The translations under genes were made by a program, and so were the position numbers. Shown in pieces: positions 3,317 to 23,481 of a stretch of DNA of 64,000 nucleotides (the first letter of the stretch is position 1; every line of letters starts with the position of its first letter). The DNA comes from Oenococcus sp. UCMA 16435 (GTDB lineage Bacteria > Bacillota > Bacilli > Lactobacillales > Lactobacillaceae), in the NCBI GenBank assembly GCA_004010835.2, contig CP030868.2, forward strand, positions 310,001 through 374,000, written 5' to 3'. Under the pieces are notes generated by a model. That model did no database searches and was not told the origin of the DNA. It worked only from the letters and a program-made list of their open reading frames with translations.

Positions 3317-4852
3317 ATGAAAAAAAATAAATCCAGCAACTCCAAAATGTCTCTCTTTGGTTTCTTCACTCTGACGGCCGCAATGTTGATGTCTGCCGAC
3401 GAATATCCAGCCTTTGCTCAATCCGGATTACTAGCCGTCCTTTATCTTGTTTTAGCTGGACTATTGTGGTTTCTTCCAATCGCACTTTGTTCGGCAGAAA
3501 TGGCAACGGTTTCCGGATGGGAAGAAGGTGGTGTTTATGCTTGGGTCAAAAATACCCTTGGTAAACGAGCCGGATTCATTGCAGTTTTTTTCCAGTGGCT
3601 GCAAATTACCGTTAATTTTATTACGATGATTTACTTCATAATCGGAGTATTGTCTTTTACGCTTGATCTTTCGATTTTAAATACAAACCACTGGTTGAAA
3701 TGGTTTCTATTCTTGGCAATTTATTGGATGATGACTTTTGTCCAAATGCATGGTATCAACGGTACAGACAAATTAGTCAAAAACACTTTCATTTGGGGGA
3801 TATTGCTACCCGCATTTATTCTATTAGCGGTTTGTGTCATCTATTTAATCATGGGTAATCCGCTTCAATTTAATACAGGTCTGGCGGAAAACTTCAAGAC
3901 ACTGACCAAAACTTTTTCAATTTCAACAATTGTGCCTTTTATTCTAGCCTTTACAGGAATAGAAGCCTCTGCGTCTTATATAAATAATTTAAAAAATCCA
4001 AAAGTAAACTATCCACTAACCTTGATTTTATTGGTTCTCTTTGCAATTATTATAGATTCATTTGGCGGTTTGTCAGTTGCTTCGGTCGTTCCTTTGGACA
4101 AATTGTCTTTGAACCAAGGAATGATCGATGCCATCAGTATCATGTTTACGACAATTAGCAAGTCCGCCTGGGCGAGTTGGATGATCAAAATTGTTGGGTT
4201 GTTGATGGCCTTTGGAATGCTCGGCGAGATTAGTTCCTGGATTGTCGGCCCAGTCAAATCCTTATTAGTTACCGCCGAAGACCGAATTCTGCCCGCTTAC
4301 TTTGATCATGTAAATAAGCAACAGGTTCCAGCTCGTTTAGTTATTTTTCAAGGGATAATCGTTAGTATTATCAGTGGCGTACTTACAGTTGGTTTTGGTG
4401 GCAACAATGATGCCTATAAAATGTCGATGAGTATGACCGTGATGCTTTATCTTGTAACTTATATCTTAATTTTTGTTGGTTATTTAGCATTAACTGCAAA
4501 TAAGAAAGCAATATCTCGTAAATTCAAGATTCCTGGTGGAAAAATTGTTCGTTTTACAGTTGCTACCCTTGGGCTGATTAGTTCACTGGCAGTGTTCGTC
4601 TCGACATTTATTCCAAGCGGAATCAAAGGAATAAGCCTAAATGCTTATGTGATGATTATGCTAACTTTCTTTATTTTCATTTTCGTTTTAACTCTCTTAA
4701 TCTATTCGAGAAGGTCTCAAACCTCCAAACGGAATTACAAGCTGCGTCATAAAACAGTCGAAGAAGTTTCTCCTTTTACTTATTTACGCGGACGAGCAGA
4801 AACCGTTATCGAAGATATTGAAAACGATATTTCGGAGGACAAACATCATTGA
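3317..4852 (+). CDS. APC-superfamily amino-acid antiporter (glutamate:GABA antiporter-like)
   Basis: A 511-residue integral membrane protein with about 12 helices and a charged cytoplasmic tail (about 470-511). SADEYPAFAQSGLLAVLY in helix 1, EEGGVYAWVKNTLG between helices 2 and 3, and the FILAFTGIEASASYINNLKNP segment in helix 6 are typical of the glutamate:GABA antiporter branch of APC exchangers. GAGGAAAC lies before the ATG. No decarboxylase gene is next to it, so the exchanged pair cannot be read from context. It faces lytS and converges on the FemX-type gene. Confidence 0.85.
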   Translation: MKKNKSSNSKMSLFGFFTLTAAMLMSADEYPAFAQSGLLAVLYLVLAGLLWFLPIALCSAEMATVSGWEEGGVYAWVKNTLGKRAGFIAVFFQWLQITVNFITMIYFIIGVLSFTLDLSILNTNHWLKWFLFLAIYWMMTFVQMHGINGTDKLVKNTFIWGILLPAFILLAVCVIYLIMGNPLQFNTGLAENFKTLTKTFSISTIVPFILAFTGIEASASYINNLKNPKVNYPLTLILLVLFAIIIDSFGGLSVASVVPLDKLSLNQGMIDAISIMFTTISKSAWASWMIKIVGLLMAFGMLGEISSWIVGPVKSLLVTAEDRILPAYFDHVNKQQVPARLVIFQGIIVSIISGVLTVGFGGNNDAYKMSMSMTVMLYLVTYILIFVGYLALTANKKAISRKFKIPGGKIVRFTVATLGLISSLAVFVSTFIPSGIKGISLNAYVMIMLTFFIFIFVLTLLIYSRRSQTSKRNYKLRHKTVEEVSPFTYLRGRAETVIEDIENDISEDKHH

Positions 4853-18944: not shown

Positions 18945-19790
18945 TTAGTAAGACAAACCTGGATTGAAGAAACCAACTAATACACCAATAAATGAGATAA
19001 CAACAAGAAGAACCATAGTCCAAATTGCCGACAAATGTTTCTTTGACATCAGCCACCAACAGAATAACGTTACGGCAACGGTTAGTAGTCCCGGATAAAT
19101 GCTATCAAGTTTGCTTTGGAGGTTAAGAAAAACCTTACCGTTTGTACCAGTTAATTTAAGTGAAGTAGTAACACTAACCCATGTGGCAAGAACGCCACCA
19201 ACGACCATGCTACCTACGACTCCAATAGCGTGTCTGATGGCGGCACCTTGTTTCCCAACTAGAAAGCTAACGGCAGTGTCACCAAGTTTATAACCTCGAA
19301 AATAAAGAAAACGCTGACCAAAATAAGCAATTAAAACCCATGCAATGATATAAAATATTGCACCAATTGGCGAGCCTCCTGAAGACATACCCAAGGAAAT
19401 ACCCAATAGTATAGGGATTAAAGTACCATCGATTAATGAATCACCAATACCAGCAATCGGGCCCATTAAACCCGCTCGCATATCGTTAATCGTTTCGCCA
19501 TCAATGTCTTTTCCGCTAGACCGAGCTTCTTCCATGCTGGCAGTGGTTCCTATAATAACTGACCCCAACATTGGATTGGTGTTAAAGAATGCGGTATAAG
19601 CATGAATAGCTTTGACTTGATCTTCGTGTTTAGGATACAATTTTTTAATAATTGGCAGCATCGAAGCCATATAGCCAAATGTCTGCATGTGTTCCTGAGA
19701 AAAGCAAGTCAAGGCACCCCAAAACCAAAGATGAAATGAATGGCTGAGTGTCTTATGATCGAGTCGCTTTACGTCTTGAGTTTTTTCCAT
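18945..19790 (-). CDS. PTS mannose/fructose/sorbose family IID component (orphan)
   Basis: A 281-residue membrane protein of the mannose-type phosphotransferase system. SFHLWFWGALTCFSQEHMQTFGYMASMLP, FFNTNPMLGSVIIGTTASMEE and GPIAGIGDSLIDGTLIPILLGI are conserved IID segments; the length is normal. IID works only together with a IIC subunit and IIA/IIB enzymes, and none is encoded here. Instead the upstream gene keeps just the IIC tail fused to another protein, and AGGAGG in that tail serves as the ribosome site of IID. It is therefore probably a leftover of a deleted operon, though its own frame is intact. Confidence 0.9.
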   Translation of the reverse strand: MEKTQDVKRLDHKTLSHSFHLWFWGALTCFSQEHMQTFGYMASMLPIIKKLYPKHEDQVKAIHAYTAFFNTNPMLGSVIIGTTASMEEARSSGKDIDGETINDMRAGLMGPIAGIGDSLIDGTLIPILLGISLGMSSGGSPIGAIFYIIAWVLIAYFGQRFLYFRGYKLGDTAVSFLVGKQGAAIRHAIGVVGSMVVGGVLATWVSVTTSLKLTGTNGKVFLNLQSKLDSIYPGLLTVAVTLFCWWLMSKKHLSAIWTMVLLVVISFIGVLVGFFNPGLSY

Positions 19791-19792
19791 AA

Positions 19793-20182
19793 TTAGATAT
19801 CCTCCTCATCATCGCTACCTGCTCCTTGAGTTACAGCAGTATTACCACCTGACGGTCCGGAACCCTTCTTTCTATATGAAGGTGAAATATCGTAGCCTAT
19901 ATTTCCGCCAAATTCTAGTGCTTGTCTACGAATTCTCGTAACGCCCAAAACGTTTGATTTATCGTCAACCAACCAAAAAGTCGACTGGGCTACCCAACCT
20001 TTGGGTAAATTAATTCCTTGACCTTGTTTCTCCAAAGTATTTATATATTGGTCAAAATTGCCTAAAGCTAATCTATATTTTTTGTAATAAGATGGTTCGC
20101 CATCTGTTAAATAAGACTCAACATACTTATGAAAGCTTTGTTGATATTCAATTTTTGGTTTGTCTAAAAATAATTTTGTCAT
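19793..20182 (-). CDS. Chimera: GNAT acetyltransferase N-terminus fused to PTS IIC C-terminal tail
   Basis: A 129-residue open frame. Residues 1-106 are the first part of a GNAT-family acetyltransferase (FWLVDDKSNVLGVTRIRR, then GGNIGYDISPSYRKKG), which stops at the point where the acetyl-CoA loop (normally G-x-G-T) should follow. From about residue 107 the sequence becomes SGPSGG...SDDEEDI, a glycine-rich stretch with an acidic end like those at the C-terminus of mannose-family IIC proteins, two bases before the IID start. This looks like a deletion that removed the rest of the acetyltransferase and IIA, IIB and most of IIC. AAAGGA precedes the ATG. It is unlikely to be an active enzyme. Confidence 0.75.
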   Translation of the reverse strand: MTKLFLDKPKIEYQQSFHKYVESYLTDGEPSYYKKYRLALGNFDQYINTLEKQGQGINLPKGWVAQSTFWLVDDKSNVLGVTRIRRQALEFGGNIGYDISPSYRKKGSGPSGGNTAVTQGAGSDDEEDI

Positions 20183-20480: not shown

Positions 20481-20984
20481 CTAATTGTCAAAGATTTTTG
20501 CCATGTATAATTCGTTAATATAATTCTGTTTTTGAAAAATGGAATCTTGGCGTATTCCTTCAACAACAAAACCATGTTTTTTATAAAGCTTTTGAGCGAT
20601 TAAATTATCCTGCATAACGGTTAGTTCTAAGCGGTGAAGATGATTGTTAAATGCCCATCGATTCATCGAACTAAAGAGTTGGTCACCTATGCCCTTATGC
20701 CTTGCTTCTTTCAAAACACCAACAACAACATATCCAAGGTGCTGAATTTTTTTAAAATAAGGTCTATCAACAGTTAAATTACCGACAATTTTACCAGTTT
20801 GATCTTCAGCCAGCAGCCACAGTCCTTGATCTTTGTTTAATTGTTTAATTTTATTTTCGATGTCCAAACAATCATCTTGGCGTTCCTCAGGGTATAAAAG
20901 CATTAAATCAGTTTGCCAATCTAATTCTTTTTGAAATTCCAATATTTCTTGCGCATCAGAAACAACTGCCTGCTTAATTAACAA
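20481..20984 (-). CDS. GNAT-family N-acetyltransferase
   Basis: A 167-residue enzyme that moves an acetyl group from acetyl-CoA to an amine. The core reads GYVVVGVLKEARHKGIGDQL (acetyl-CoA loop RHKGIG) and then HRLELTVMQDNLIAQKLYKKHGF, typical of the RimI/RimJ-like branch. A TTG at 20984 is the best start because GGAGTG lies just upstream; an earlier in-frame TTG at 20996 would overlap that site. It opens a possible operon that runs through the 71-residue gene, the chimera, PTS IID and the two-helix protein. Confidence 0.85.
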   Translation of the reverse strand: MLIKQAVVSDAQEILEFQKELDWQTDLMLLYPEERQDDCLDIENKIKQLNKDQGLWLLAEDQTGKIVGNLTVDRPYFKKIQHLGYVVVGVLKEARHKGIGDQLFSSMNRWAFNNHLHRLELTVMQDNLIAQKLYKKHGFVVEGIRQDSIFQKQNYINELYMAKIFDN

Positions 20985-21132
20985 AATCCACTCCAAATCA
21001 ATTTAAAAAACTTTAATTGCATAAAATTATAACAAATCATTTCTCAAAAATAGGAATTATCTAAAATAAAGATAAATCATATCATTGAACAAAAATATGT
21101 AAACTGTTTTAAAAAATTGTCATTTTTTCAAT

Positions 21133-21203
21133 AAAAAAAGCCTTTTGCAGAGTTGTTTCAAACAACAAGGTTTATTATAATAACTCAGTGTAAGCGCATA
21201 CAA
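21133..21203. promoter_or_regulatory. Two-faced promoter, copy 1
   Basis: Plus strand: TTGTTT (21153-21158), 17 bases, TATAAT (21176-21181). Minus strand: TTGTAT (21203-21198), 18 bases, TATAAT (21179-21174). The two -10 boxes overlap in ATTATAAT. The minus transcript would be only about 35 nt, a hairpin with GTTGTTTCAAACAAC ending in seven T residues (21133-21139). Confidence 0.55.
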
Positions 21204-21395
21204 TATATGTCGCTTACAGTTTTAGTTTCATGTGTTTCAAATTTAAATTGTAGTAGTTGTAAGTGTTTGTTTAAATAACCATTGTTGATGATAAAGGTAG
21301 TGGTTATGAATATTCAAATTGTACTATTTTAAATAATCAAAATAATCTAATGAAAATAAAATTGCTCCTGATTTAATCTATCAGGAGTTTTATTT
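21188..21395 (+). ncRNA. Candidate structured small RNA, copy 1 (about 208 nt)
   Basis: Predicted to start at about 21188. Hairpin 1 at the 5' end: GTAAGCG (21190-21196) with CGCTTAC (21211-21217). Hairpin 2: TAACCATT (21276-21283) with AGTGGTTA (21299-21306), loop containing GATGA. A terminator CTCCTGAT/ATCAGGAG (21365-21387) ends in T-rich sequence. An 8-codon frame after GGTAGTGG is possible but too short to judge. A second unit 330 bases downstream has the same order of elements with different stem bases. Confidence 0.55.
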
Positions 21396-21410
21396 TATAA
21401 ATCGATTATT

Positions 21411-21537
21411 AAAAAACAGCCATTTTAACGGCTGTTAATCATAGGAAAAACGGATTTTTAAATAAAGGAGAACCTCTGCGAGGGCGTTGTTTCAAGCGCC
21501 AAGTTCTATTATAATACATTAATGTAAGCGCATACAA
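21411..21537. promoter_or_regulatory. Two-faced promoter, copy 2, with minus-strand RNA
   Basis: Plus strand: TTGTTT (21487-21492), 17 bases, TATAAT (21510-21515). Minus strand: TTGTAT (21537-21532), 18 bases, TATAAT (21513-21508). The minus transcript would run from about 21501, through a hairpin GGCGCTT...GCGCC-type stem, to the terminator AACAGCC/GGCTGTT (21415-21436) with six T residues, about 91 nt. Confidence 0.55.
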
Positions 21538-21704
21538 AATATGTCTTACAAAGTTAGTTTTTGATTAAAATCTCTAAATTAAAACCGCTGCCAATGATGA
21601 CAGCGGCTGTAGCAAAAAATACCTTCTCAGGATTTTTTGTGTGTCATTTTGACACAAATCAATTATACAAAAACTCTTGGTTTTCGTTCACCGGGAGTTT
21701 TTTG
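21522..21704 (+). ncRNA. Candidate structured small RNA, copy 2 (about 183 nt)
   Basis: Hairpin 1: TGTAAG (21523-21528) with CTTACA (21545-21550). Hairpin 2: CCGCTG (21585-21590) with CAGCGG (21601-21606), loop containing GATGA as in copy 1. A third hairpin TGTGTC/GACACA lies near 21640-21656. Terminator ACTCTTGG/CCGGGAGT (21673-21698) with six T residues. Stems differ from copy 1 in bases but keep pairing, which supports an RNA rather than a protein product. Confidence 0.55.
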
Positions 21705-22033
21705 TTTCTAAACTTTATTTTTGTTTTTTATTAGCTTCCATTTAAATCAATAAGTAAATCTTTTCGCCAATTTCAGATATCTTGTGGATTCGATCCCCTC
21801 AACAAGTGTTGTCTTAGATCTGTTGAGGCCAATCAAAACGGTAACATTAACTAGCCGAAATTCTTTTAAAAACAACTGCCGACGTTATTGATTATCAGAC
21901 CCTAGTTCCAGAAAATAGTCGAGTCCTGTCTTGGCAGATGATTATAATGATTAAAATTTCCCTGTTAGATTAGAACAAAAACCAGACAAGTTATAACTTG
22001 TACTTGATATATGTATTCTTAATATTAAGCAAT

Positions 22034-22152
22034 AAAAAACCGCTACTAATTAAATAGTGGCGGTCCCAATATCGATCTTTTCATTAACCGATATCACATG
22101 AAAACTGAATTAGTCAATAAGAATAATTTAGTTTTAGGTATCAAAGATACCT
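22034..22152 (-). ncRNA. Candidate small RNA B (about 119 nt)
   Basis: On the minus strand the extended -10 TGGTAAAAT (22167-22159) predicts a start at 22152, which is the first base of a perfect hairpin AGGTATC-TTT-GATACCT (22136-22152). The middle holds GACTAATTCAG and an ATATCG/CGATAT stem; the end is the terminator ACCGCCACTA/TAGTAGCGGT (22039-22064) with six T residues. Same plan as RNA A at 16.4 kb. The terminator could also serve the acyltransferase gene that ends at 22243. Confidence 0.55.
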
Positions 22153-22242
22153 ACAGTAATTTTACCAAATCAATTAAAGATATGAATATTTTTGCAATGA
22201 AAAATTAAACCAAACTACATGAATTTTGTGGGACAAATAAAA

Positions 22243-23481
22243 TCATCTTTCGAAAGTCGATGATCCGGACAAGCGTGCACTAATAGCCTGAAACGGATGC
22301 CAATTCGGTCGGCCCACTAAAAATCCAAATGGTGGTATCTTGTAGCAGAACCAGGCAATCATAAATGAGATAGCGATCACGATCACCCAACCAACCGGAA
22401 TTAACGCTATCATAATCCAATCAGGAAGCGATAATACAGATAATAACCAACTAAGTACTAATAAACCAAGTGTTTGATTAAGGTACATACCAAAACTAAC
22501 TTTCACTGCCCTGTTTATAAAGTTTTCAAGCCATTTAGGAAAACCACGTTGGCGAAAAGAGGCATATTTTTTTCCGAGCCAAAAAATAAGGCTAAGCATT
22601 ACAATGTCATAACAAGCGATATAAGGTTGATGAAGGGACAACGAACTATCACTATTAATTCCAAGAATTTGTTGATCCCAAATACGATAATAAGCAATCA
22701 TACCAATAGCCATAACTATGGCAAGAGGAATAATTACTCGAATATATCGTTGCAAAAACGAGTAAATTCCTCGATAATGCAAGCAGGTATAAACACCATA
22801 AATCATGTAGAATTGATACGCAAAAATGTTGATGCTTGTGGCTTTAAACCAATAAGGCCAGTTGGAAATATCTATTTGTGGCATAGCAAATTTAACAAAG
22901 AAAACTAAAATCAATTGGCAAATAAAACTAATAAACAAAATTTTGTTGTGAGAATGCGGCCATTTTTTAAAAAACCAAACAATTATTGGAAACAGCAGGT
23001 ACAGTTGCATTACTAATAACATATAGTACATATAGAAACTACTTCCGTGCATAATTAGTGTTAAATATTTGTTTCCAAAATTACTCAGTTGGTAATTGGG
23101 ATCACCTAAAGCAATCATTAGTAGCATTAGCAAGGCATTCCATGTTAAATATGGCCATAAGCTGCCATTAAATCGTTTTTTAAAAAAAGCCGGCCAGTCA
23201 TTGCGATTGAAATAAGTTAGGGTTAAAACAACTCCACTGATAAATATAAATCCCATACGCGTGTAGTGAAACATGACGCGTAAACTGCGAATGGTATAGT
23301 ATGTATCGCTTTGCGACATTGCAAGGGTAAATTTATTAACTGTATGATTAAATAAAACTCCAAAAGTAAAAAAAATTCGCATAAAATCAATTTCATGTAA
23401 ATGAGTTCGGTGAGATTGCTTCGATGTATCGGTTTGTGTCAAAGAATCATCTTCTTTCGTGGTTTGTTTTGATAGCCACAA
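22243..23481 (-). CDS. Acyltransferase 3 family membrane protein (OafA-like)
   Basis: About 412 residues with 10 membrane helices. HEIDFMRIFFTFGVLFNHTVNKF contains the conserved first-helix region with the catalytic-type histidine, and LTYFNRNDWPAFFKKR supplies the arginine motif. This family O-acylates surface sugars, peptidoglycan or other extracellular targets. The start is uncertain: the upstream TTG at 23481 has no ribosome site, and the first 27 residues are polar and may be untranslated. The product acceptor cannot be inferred from neighbours. Confidence 0.82.
   Translation of the reverse strand: MWLSKQTTKEDDSLTQTDTSKQSHRTHLHEIDFMRIFFTFGVLFNHTVNKFTLAMSQSDTYYTIRSLRVMFHYTRMGFIFISGVVLTLTYFNRNDWPAFFKKRFNGSLWPYLTWNALLMLLMIALGDPNYQLSNFGNKYLTLIMHGSSFYMYYMLLVMQLYLLFPIIVWFFKKWPHSHNKILFISFICQLILVFFVKFAMPQIDISNWPYWFKATSINIFAYQFYMIYGVYTCLHYRGIYSFLQRYIRVIIPLAIVMAIGMIAYYRIWDQQILGINSDSSLSLHQPYIACYDIVMLSLIFWLGKKYASFRQRGFPKWLENFINRAVKVSFGMYLNQTLGLLVLSWLLSVLSLPDWIMIALIPVGWVIVIAISFMIAWFCYKIPPFGFLVGRPNWHPFQAISARLSGSSTFER

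Follow-up and report, generated by a model that had tools for sequence, protein, structure and literature searches.

The genome of Oenococcus sp. UCMA 16435 (2.03 Mb), a bacterium closely related to Oenococcus oeni from wine, contains five loci (U1 to U5) that are best explained as a clade-specific family of small non-coding RNA genes with promoters readable both ways and repressed by CcpA. We give this reading a probability of roughly 0.72; the transcription, the repression by CcpA and the antisense action that it includes are predictions from sequence. Conserved RNA would leave in both directions at two of the five promoters (U2 and U3) and in a single direction at the rest. U1 and U2 lie in the window, i.e., the whole analysed stretch of 64,000 nucleotides (positions 310,001 to 374,000 of contig CP030868.2), and coordinates below are those of the window unless stated otherwise. 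An earlier note on this DNA had described U1 and U2 as twin structured RNAs, each with a two-faced promoter. The structured RNAs and the two-way promoters are supported, but there are five loci and not two.

At U1 the plus promoter (21153..21181, + strand) consists of a -35 box TTGTTT at 21153-21158, a 17-nt spacer and a -10 box TATAAT at 21176-21181, and the minus promoter (21174..21203, - strand) of TTGTAT at 21203-21198, an 18-nt spacer and TATAAT at 21179-21174. The same arrangement is seen at U2, with the plus promoter at 21487..21515 (+; TTGTTT 21487-21492, 17-nt spacer, TATAAT 21510-21515) and the minus promoter at 21508..21537 (-; TTGTAT 21537-21532, 18-nt spacer, TATAAT 21513-21508). 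Reading and a script agree on all four, so the overlap of the two directions in a palindromic TATTATAATA is as first described, and the distance between the units, given as about 330 bases, measures 334 nt. The palindrome, found at 21507-21516 in U2 with the minus -10 inside it, is perfect at U1, U2, and U3 and in six of the 10 copies overall (the five loci plus their O. oeni orthologs). A symmetric -10 with overlapping -10 elements on both strands is the hallmark of a bidirectional promoter, and the predicted divergent starts are 21 bp apart (18 bp with TATTAT as the -10). Near-symmetric -10 boxes read from both strands have likewise been described for bacterial bidirectional promoters, where a regulator site can cover both directions (excerpts of PMC12825309 and PMC10268837); in the first of these excerpts the starts are most often 18, but also 10 and 23 bp apart, compared to the 21 bp (or 18 bp) seen here. 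Both types of -35 box match TTGACA at only three of six positions, i.e., they are weak, which explains why a consensus promoter scan did not list the promoters of U1 and U2. The -35 TTG stands 17–18 nt before the -10 in all 10 copies, and at U1 the O. oeni ortholog retains it together with the plus TATAAT. Overall, TATAAT is kept in the minus direction in 10 of 10 copies and in the plus direction in eight; at U4, which keeps the minus RNA only, the plus -10 reads TATAGT.

Seven nucleotides past the plus -10, at the predicted +1, each unit carries a box that the earlier note overlooked at the start of the 5' hairpin, its promoter facts being otherwise correct. This is GTGTAAGCGCATACAA at U1 (21188..21203, +), with 15 of the 16 positions of WTGNAARCGNWWWCAW, and ATGTAAGCGCATACAA at U2 (21522..21537, +), an exact match (16/16) lying over the minus -35. 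We take WTGNAARCGNWWWCAW to be the CcpA cre consensus and read both boxes as cre on that basis. A cre-like site begins 6–7 nt downstream of the -10 in all 10 copies (16/16 in six, 15/16 in three and 14/16 in one), and thus a WTGNAARCGNWWWCAW-type site is present at the promoter in every copy, as in operators of the CcpA regulon. The pattern is over-represented genome-wide, with 26 strand matches (22 places) against two for the reversed pattern. The genome also encodes a CcpA-like protein, which scores 361.6 bits with the ccpA family (under the curated cut-off of 442.35) and 174.9 with the next family. An exact cre pattern at 488508-488523 of contig CP030868.2, 65 bp upstream of the listed match of this gene, suggests self-regulation. 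A cre at a start site usually means repression. Repression is also what PMC8414754 attributes to cre sites overlapping promoters; it describes the 6S RNA of lactic acid bacteria, likewise a non-coding RNA gene with a cre at its promoter, as raised 3-fold in L. lactis when ccpA is mutated. 6S RNA as the identity of our loci was set aside, with no 6S match from Rfam in the window or in 12 kb around U1, U3, U4, and U5.

The cre box is the source of both the 5' arm of the first hairpin and the minus -35 (at U1 the latter is part of the box), so that neither fact alone demonstrates an RNA or a minus promoter. With the minus -35 explained by cre and the minus -10 by symmetry, the minus promoter alone is not strong evidence either. 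These loci could accordingly be one-way genes, with one purposeful strand each (plus at U1, U2, U3, and U5, minus at U4), the second promoter being a by-product of -10 symmetry and cre, and the upstream hairpin and terminator belonging to the operator or to a neighbour. We consider this rather unlikely, although it is favoured by TTGTAT being the complement of the cre ATACAA and by spurious divergent starts from symmetric -10 boxes being common in bacteria, as far as the excerpts of PMC10268837 and PMC12825309 go.

A module pattern, TATWAT-N8-GTAAGCGCATACA, was searched with its reversed form as control. At one mismatch or fewer it occurs at five places in this genome and four in O. oeni, against zero for the control in both. 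The five are, in genome coordinates, U1 at 331176 (+), U2 at 331510 (+), U4 at 470869, U3 at 1839746 (-), and U5 at 1840915 (-). Such recurrence with an empty control excludes chance, which two copies alone would not do. At three mismatches or fewer there are 10 places (control 0), and of the five additional ones two were inspected and neither resembles a family member. In O. oeni DSM 20252, U2 to U5 come from the same search, and U1, whose spacer is shorter by one base, was identified by reading at the syntenic place. All five loci have orthologs in matching surroundings, which argues against the promoter being a chance passenger of a mobile or repeated DNA element. Five partial copies in two close pairs (U1/U2 and U5/U3) are what such an element might leave; still, the paralogs have little in common beyond the core and nothing similar appears in 50,697 phage and 72,556 plasmid records, making this origin barely plausible.

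The distribution is narrow. Three other Oenococcus genomes (98–99% complete) have no module match at two mismatches or fewer, and two more (65 and 68% complete) each have a single match, with two mismatches, before an apparent protein gene. Neither the pattern nor the covariance models described below gave a family member in these five genomes, two of them being only 65–68% complete. Among 60 genomes, 14 have the module at two mismatches or fewer, and the exact pattern retrieves seven stretches from a collection of 84,980 species that may omit the genome of the window itself: three from O. oeni, two from Paenibacillus, one from Bacillus and one from Priestia. We assume that the matches outside the genus are ordinary cre sites, and the family is best explained as specific to the clade of this genome and O. 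oeni.

Comparison with O. oeni separates the two directions. Identities of the minus segment and the plus body are 57 and 87% at U1, 91 and 86% at U2, 73 and 93% at U3, 97 and 36% at U4, and 23 and 86% at U5, from which plus RNAs appear to be kept at U1, U2, U3, and U5, minus RNAs at U2, U3, and U4, and both at U2 and U3. The two-way output originally proposed for both units is thus supported by conservation at U2, where the predicted minus RNA is kept, and not at U1, where 57% identity lends no support to a functional minus RNA. The flanks are hardly alignable to the right of U2 (45%), U3 (31%), and U5 (25%) and to the left of U3 (46%) and U5 (29%). Alignable flanks are those to the right of U1 (87%, running into U2) and U4 (77%), to the left of U4 (90%), and to the left of U1 and U2 (82–88%, corresponding to coding DNA and to U1 itself). 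Coding DNA beside the units is, where aligned, mostly 70–95% identical per 40-nt window. The left flank of U4 past the minus RNA also reaches 90%, so conservation there is not RNA-specific. Minus segments left unconserved at U1 and U5 are what one-way genes would show. Against them, the minus segments of U2 (91%) and U4 (97%) are conserved as much as or more than the plus bodies.

The predicted plus RNA of U1 (21188..21398, +) has hairpin 1 at 21189-21218, hairpin 2 at 21275-21307 and a terminator at 21364-21388 with a T-rich tail. That of U2 (21522..21705, +) has hairpins at 21523-21550, 21585-21606, and 21640-21656 and a terminator at 21669-21702. Both terminators appear in a terminator scan, and the identities to O. 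oeni given above (87% for U1, 86% for U2) hold beyond the core. The hairpins and terminators first noticed by eye are hence present in both units, but U1 folds weakly against shuffles (first 133 nt, z -1.23, 20 of 200 shuffles as good); the first 99 nt of U2 give z -2.25, and the U5 RNA -3.92 here and -2.41 in O. oeni. A cre hairpin opens the plus RNAs of U1, U2, U3, and U5, U4 being without the GCTTAC arm. U1 and U3 have in common a structure with a second hairpin containing a 12-nt loop segment, UUGAUGAUAAAG (21285..21296, + at U1), and a CTCCTGAT-ATCAGGAG terminator. The loop segment does not vary between U1, U3, and the corresponding O. oeni sequences. The GATGA loop ascribed to both units is likewise invariant in these four sequences, but it is absent from the O. 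oeni ortholog of U2.

Covariation between U1 and U2 had been advanced for a real RNA family, and it is weak evidence because the 5' arm of hairpin 1 is held by DNA binding. The comparison of U1 and U3 with their O. oeni orthologs is better. In these four sequences the structure pairs 99.2% of cells (16 of 500 shuffles as high), dropping to at most 54.9% when slid, and the stem has four two-sided pairs, a number reached by six of 500 shuffles; further pair types are not in excess (125 of 500 as high). Homologues keeping the pairings, on which the earlier note had staked its proposal, do exist as O. oeni orthologs. Relative to O. oeni, U2 shows compensating changes in a hairpin (TGTGTCA/TGACACA vs. 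TGTGCC/GGCACA) and in the terminator (CTCTTGG, CCGGGAG vs. CCAAGAG). With a covariance model (R2) trained on the plus RNAs of U1 and U3, U2 scores E 0.008 in this genome and 0.012 in O. oeni, and U5 scores 0.17 and 0.019, respectively; we assume that these weak matches come mostly from the cre hairpin. R2 also gave one match (E 0.34) at U1 in the opposite orientation, and nothing at E ≤1 in the other five Oenococcus genomes. Past their 5' hairpin, the plus RNAs of U1 and U2 thus do not clearly belong to a single family.

The plus RNA could also be a cre-controlled mRNA for a short hydrophobic peptide, perhaps toxin-like, starting from the GATGA loop (MIKIVVILILLLDCN at U3). All four U1/U3 sequences have an ATG-led frame of 14–20 codons, identical in both U3 orthologs. 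None of the four, though, has a Shine-Dalgarno sequence ahead of the ATG, the U1 frames differ in length (14 vs. 20 amino acids) and at several residues, and sequence changes preserve the stem; the longer open frame of U2 (21561-21734) is not kept in O. oeni, whereas the hairpins are. Taken together, a peptide gene seems very unlikely, and we return to non-coding RNAs.

The predicted minus RNA of U2 (~91 nt, 21411..21501, -) comprises a hairpin at 21500-21483, a CU-rich linker GGUUCUCCUUUA at 21474-21463, and a terminator at 21436-21415, a layout that is the same at U3 and U4 (~91–94 nt). The hairpins of U2, U3, and U4 are GGCGCUUGAAACAACGCC, GGCGUUGAUAACAACGUU, and GGUGUUGAAAAACAACACC, and the linkers UUCUCCUUUA, UUCUCCUAAA, and AACUCCGUUU, with CUCC in five of the six sequences from both species (missing in O. 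oeni U3). All six beat dinucleotide shuffles (z -2.07 to -5.23), the whole 91 nt of U2 with its terminator giving z -2.38. A layout common to three loci and folds better than shuffles in six of six sequences speak against one-way genes. Scores for partial stretches (+0.52 at U1, -0.57 at U2 without the terminator) count against a structured minus RNA. The hairpin and T-run said to end both minus sides are confirmed at U2; at U1 there is a hairpin with a T run 12 nt on, but with z +0.52, no entry in the terminator scan and 57% identity it is not confirmed as a terminator.

Pair counts on the minus alignment revealed no two-sided change and did not exceed those of shuffles, in part because U4 is shifted by one column; by eye there is one two-sided change, GGCG/CGCC vs. 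GGUG/CACC. A covariance model (R1) built from the six minus sequences recovers these at E ≤2.1e-10, as expected of training sequences, and every other match in seven Oenococcus genomes has an E of 0.038 or higher. Searched with stricter filters in 151 genomes of the family, with 27 candidates scored per genome, R1 matched other genera at E 0.004 and 0.007, which is chance level for that many genomes.

No known RNA family had been recognised by the earlier note, and Rfam 15 has no match for these RNAs. In the window it finds only one tRNA, elsewhere, with 6S included among the families without a match. In 12 kb around U1, U3, U4, and U5 no match to the RNAs appears at E ≤0.5, and in 21000-22200 the 13 matches at E ≤5 are all below the gathering score (best E 0.47). 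The closest analogues differ from our loci in their regulator or their number. The streptococcal csRNAs of the CiaRH regulon, also from lactic acid bacteria (excerpt of PMC3091779), are several sRNA genes with a common regulator site beside the -10 and then a terminator, as here. They are proposed to act at ribosome-binding sites, and have two stem-loops and an unpaired stretch able to pair with the Shine-Dalgarno sequence, features also found in the minus RNAs of U2, U3, and U4. Their CiaR site is TTTAAG-N5-TTTAAG instead of cre, and this exact pattern occurs in none of the 94 loci searched; no anti-AUG CAU was noticed before the anti-Shine-Dalgarno stretch here, and our promoters are two-way. 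RsaI of Staphylococcus aureus follows the scheme that we propose, being CcpA-repressed in glucose, released on starvation and pairing with the Shine-Dalgarno sequence (PMC9266662, in the part available). It is experimentally shown, in contrast to our sequence-based prediction, and differs also in being a single locus, against several here with two-way promoters and without an Rfam match. The RNAs of U1 to U5 would thus work like csRNAs or RsaI and are a member of neither. Divergent RNA from known bidirectional promoters is often described as antisense and non-coding in the accessible parts of PMC12825309 and PMC10268837, whereas at U2 and U3 the predicted RNAs of both directions have the appearance of conserved sRNAs. 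The parts are already known, namely a CcpA-controlled sRNA, a bidirectional promoter, and groups of sRNAs controlled by a common regulator. The fusion of these parts and the arm-by-arm retention were not found in the literature searched, and no title among the Oenococcus papers retrieved from the open PMC library concerned base-pairing sRNAs.

As to the mode of action, an Hfq gene was found in none of seven Oenococcus genomes by a search that was positive in five of 14 control genomes, and four short-pattern searches of this genome and O. oeni gave no conserved mRNA target. TAAAGGAGAA precedes an ATG at eight places here (control 1) and five in O. oeni (control 0). Three of these places have O. 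oeni counterparts (by eye fabK-like, L35-like, and a third with a differing frame), but strong ribosome-binding sites alone would explain them and they are not convincing targets. The loop complement CTTTATCATCAA was found at five places in each genome, two in each being the sRNA loci themselves and the other three and three sharing no locus. AAACGGAGTTA (two places here and two in O. oeni, reversed control 7 and 2) and AGGAGAAGAAC (two and one, control 3 and 1) share none outside the sRNA loci. Pairing between plus and minus RNAs, examined in 12 pairs against 100 mononucleotide shuffles each, reached at best z -2.7 (U4 minus with U2 plus), unconvincing among 12 tests.

U1 and U2 are placed between a GNAT acetyltransferase gene (20481-20996, -) and an acyltransferase gene (22243-23481, -), both on the minus strand, so their plus RNAs enter no same-strand gene. 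The same holds for all five plus RNAs, none of which runs into an ORF on its own strand in the stretches read. The GNAT gene lies in the direction of the U1 minus promoter, which could drive its expression. U3 and U5 are flanked by genes for an iron-containing alcohol dehydrogenase and a signal peptidase, and U4 by genes for a MIP-type channel and a TetR-type regulator. Several other features were observed nearby. An ORF at 19793-20182 (-), with no Pfam match at E ≤0.001, has by eye an acetyltransferase-like start and a short tail like the end of a PTS IIC; it directly precedes a mannose-type PTS IID gene (18945-19790, -; PF03613) and is possibly a deletion fusion that removed IIC. An intergenic hairpin block at 22028-22150 (ccgctactaattaaatagtggcgg onward) is 80–98% identical in O. 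oeni, the DNA ahead of it (~21740-21940) not being alignable. The 10-kb stretch containing U4 includes a TPP riboswitch (63.4 bits, positions 367-456, +) about 110 bases ahead of a membrane protein resembling a transporter (PF09819). Non-coding DNA past the terminator of the U4 minus RNA, at ~4500-4770 of the same stretch, is 80–98% identical to O. oeni (offsets -360 to -100) and contains a hairpin, ATCTTGTAGC-GCTACAAGAT; it may be a further RNA.

The mechanism that we propose begins with a preferred sugar, in the presence of which CcpA together with HPr-Ser-P would occupy cre and shut off transcription either way, one box stopping plus initiation and covering the minus -35. When glucose falls the promoter would open and the -10 become usable from either side, releasing two unrelated structured RNAs in opposite directions from U2 and U3, the plus RNA only from U1 and U5, and the minus RNA only from U4. 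The released RNAs would work in trans, with ribosome-binding sites as their probable point of attack, in the manner known from RsaI and proposed for csRNAs. The minus RNAs would most likely pair with the ribosome-binding sites of mRNAs independently of Hfq, and the plus RNAs of U1 and U3 would probably act via their invariant loop. More tentatively, at somewhat less than even odds in our view, cre fused to a palindromic -10 may be a two-way sRNA switch, in which one CcpA site sets both outputs, the polymerase picks one direction per firing, duplicates retain both arms (U2, U3) or, after a loss, a single one (U1, U4, U5), and unrelated sRNAs are released together at sugar exhaustion.

If this is true, O. 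oeni and its relative possess a set of sugar-exhaustion sRNAs, which would be of interest because malolactic fermentation proceeds as sugar gets low. They would also offer a natural collection of duplicated two-way promoters, with one arm, the other, or both retained by selection, in which the question of noise or function in the second direction would be directly testable.
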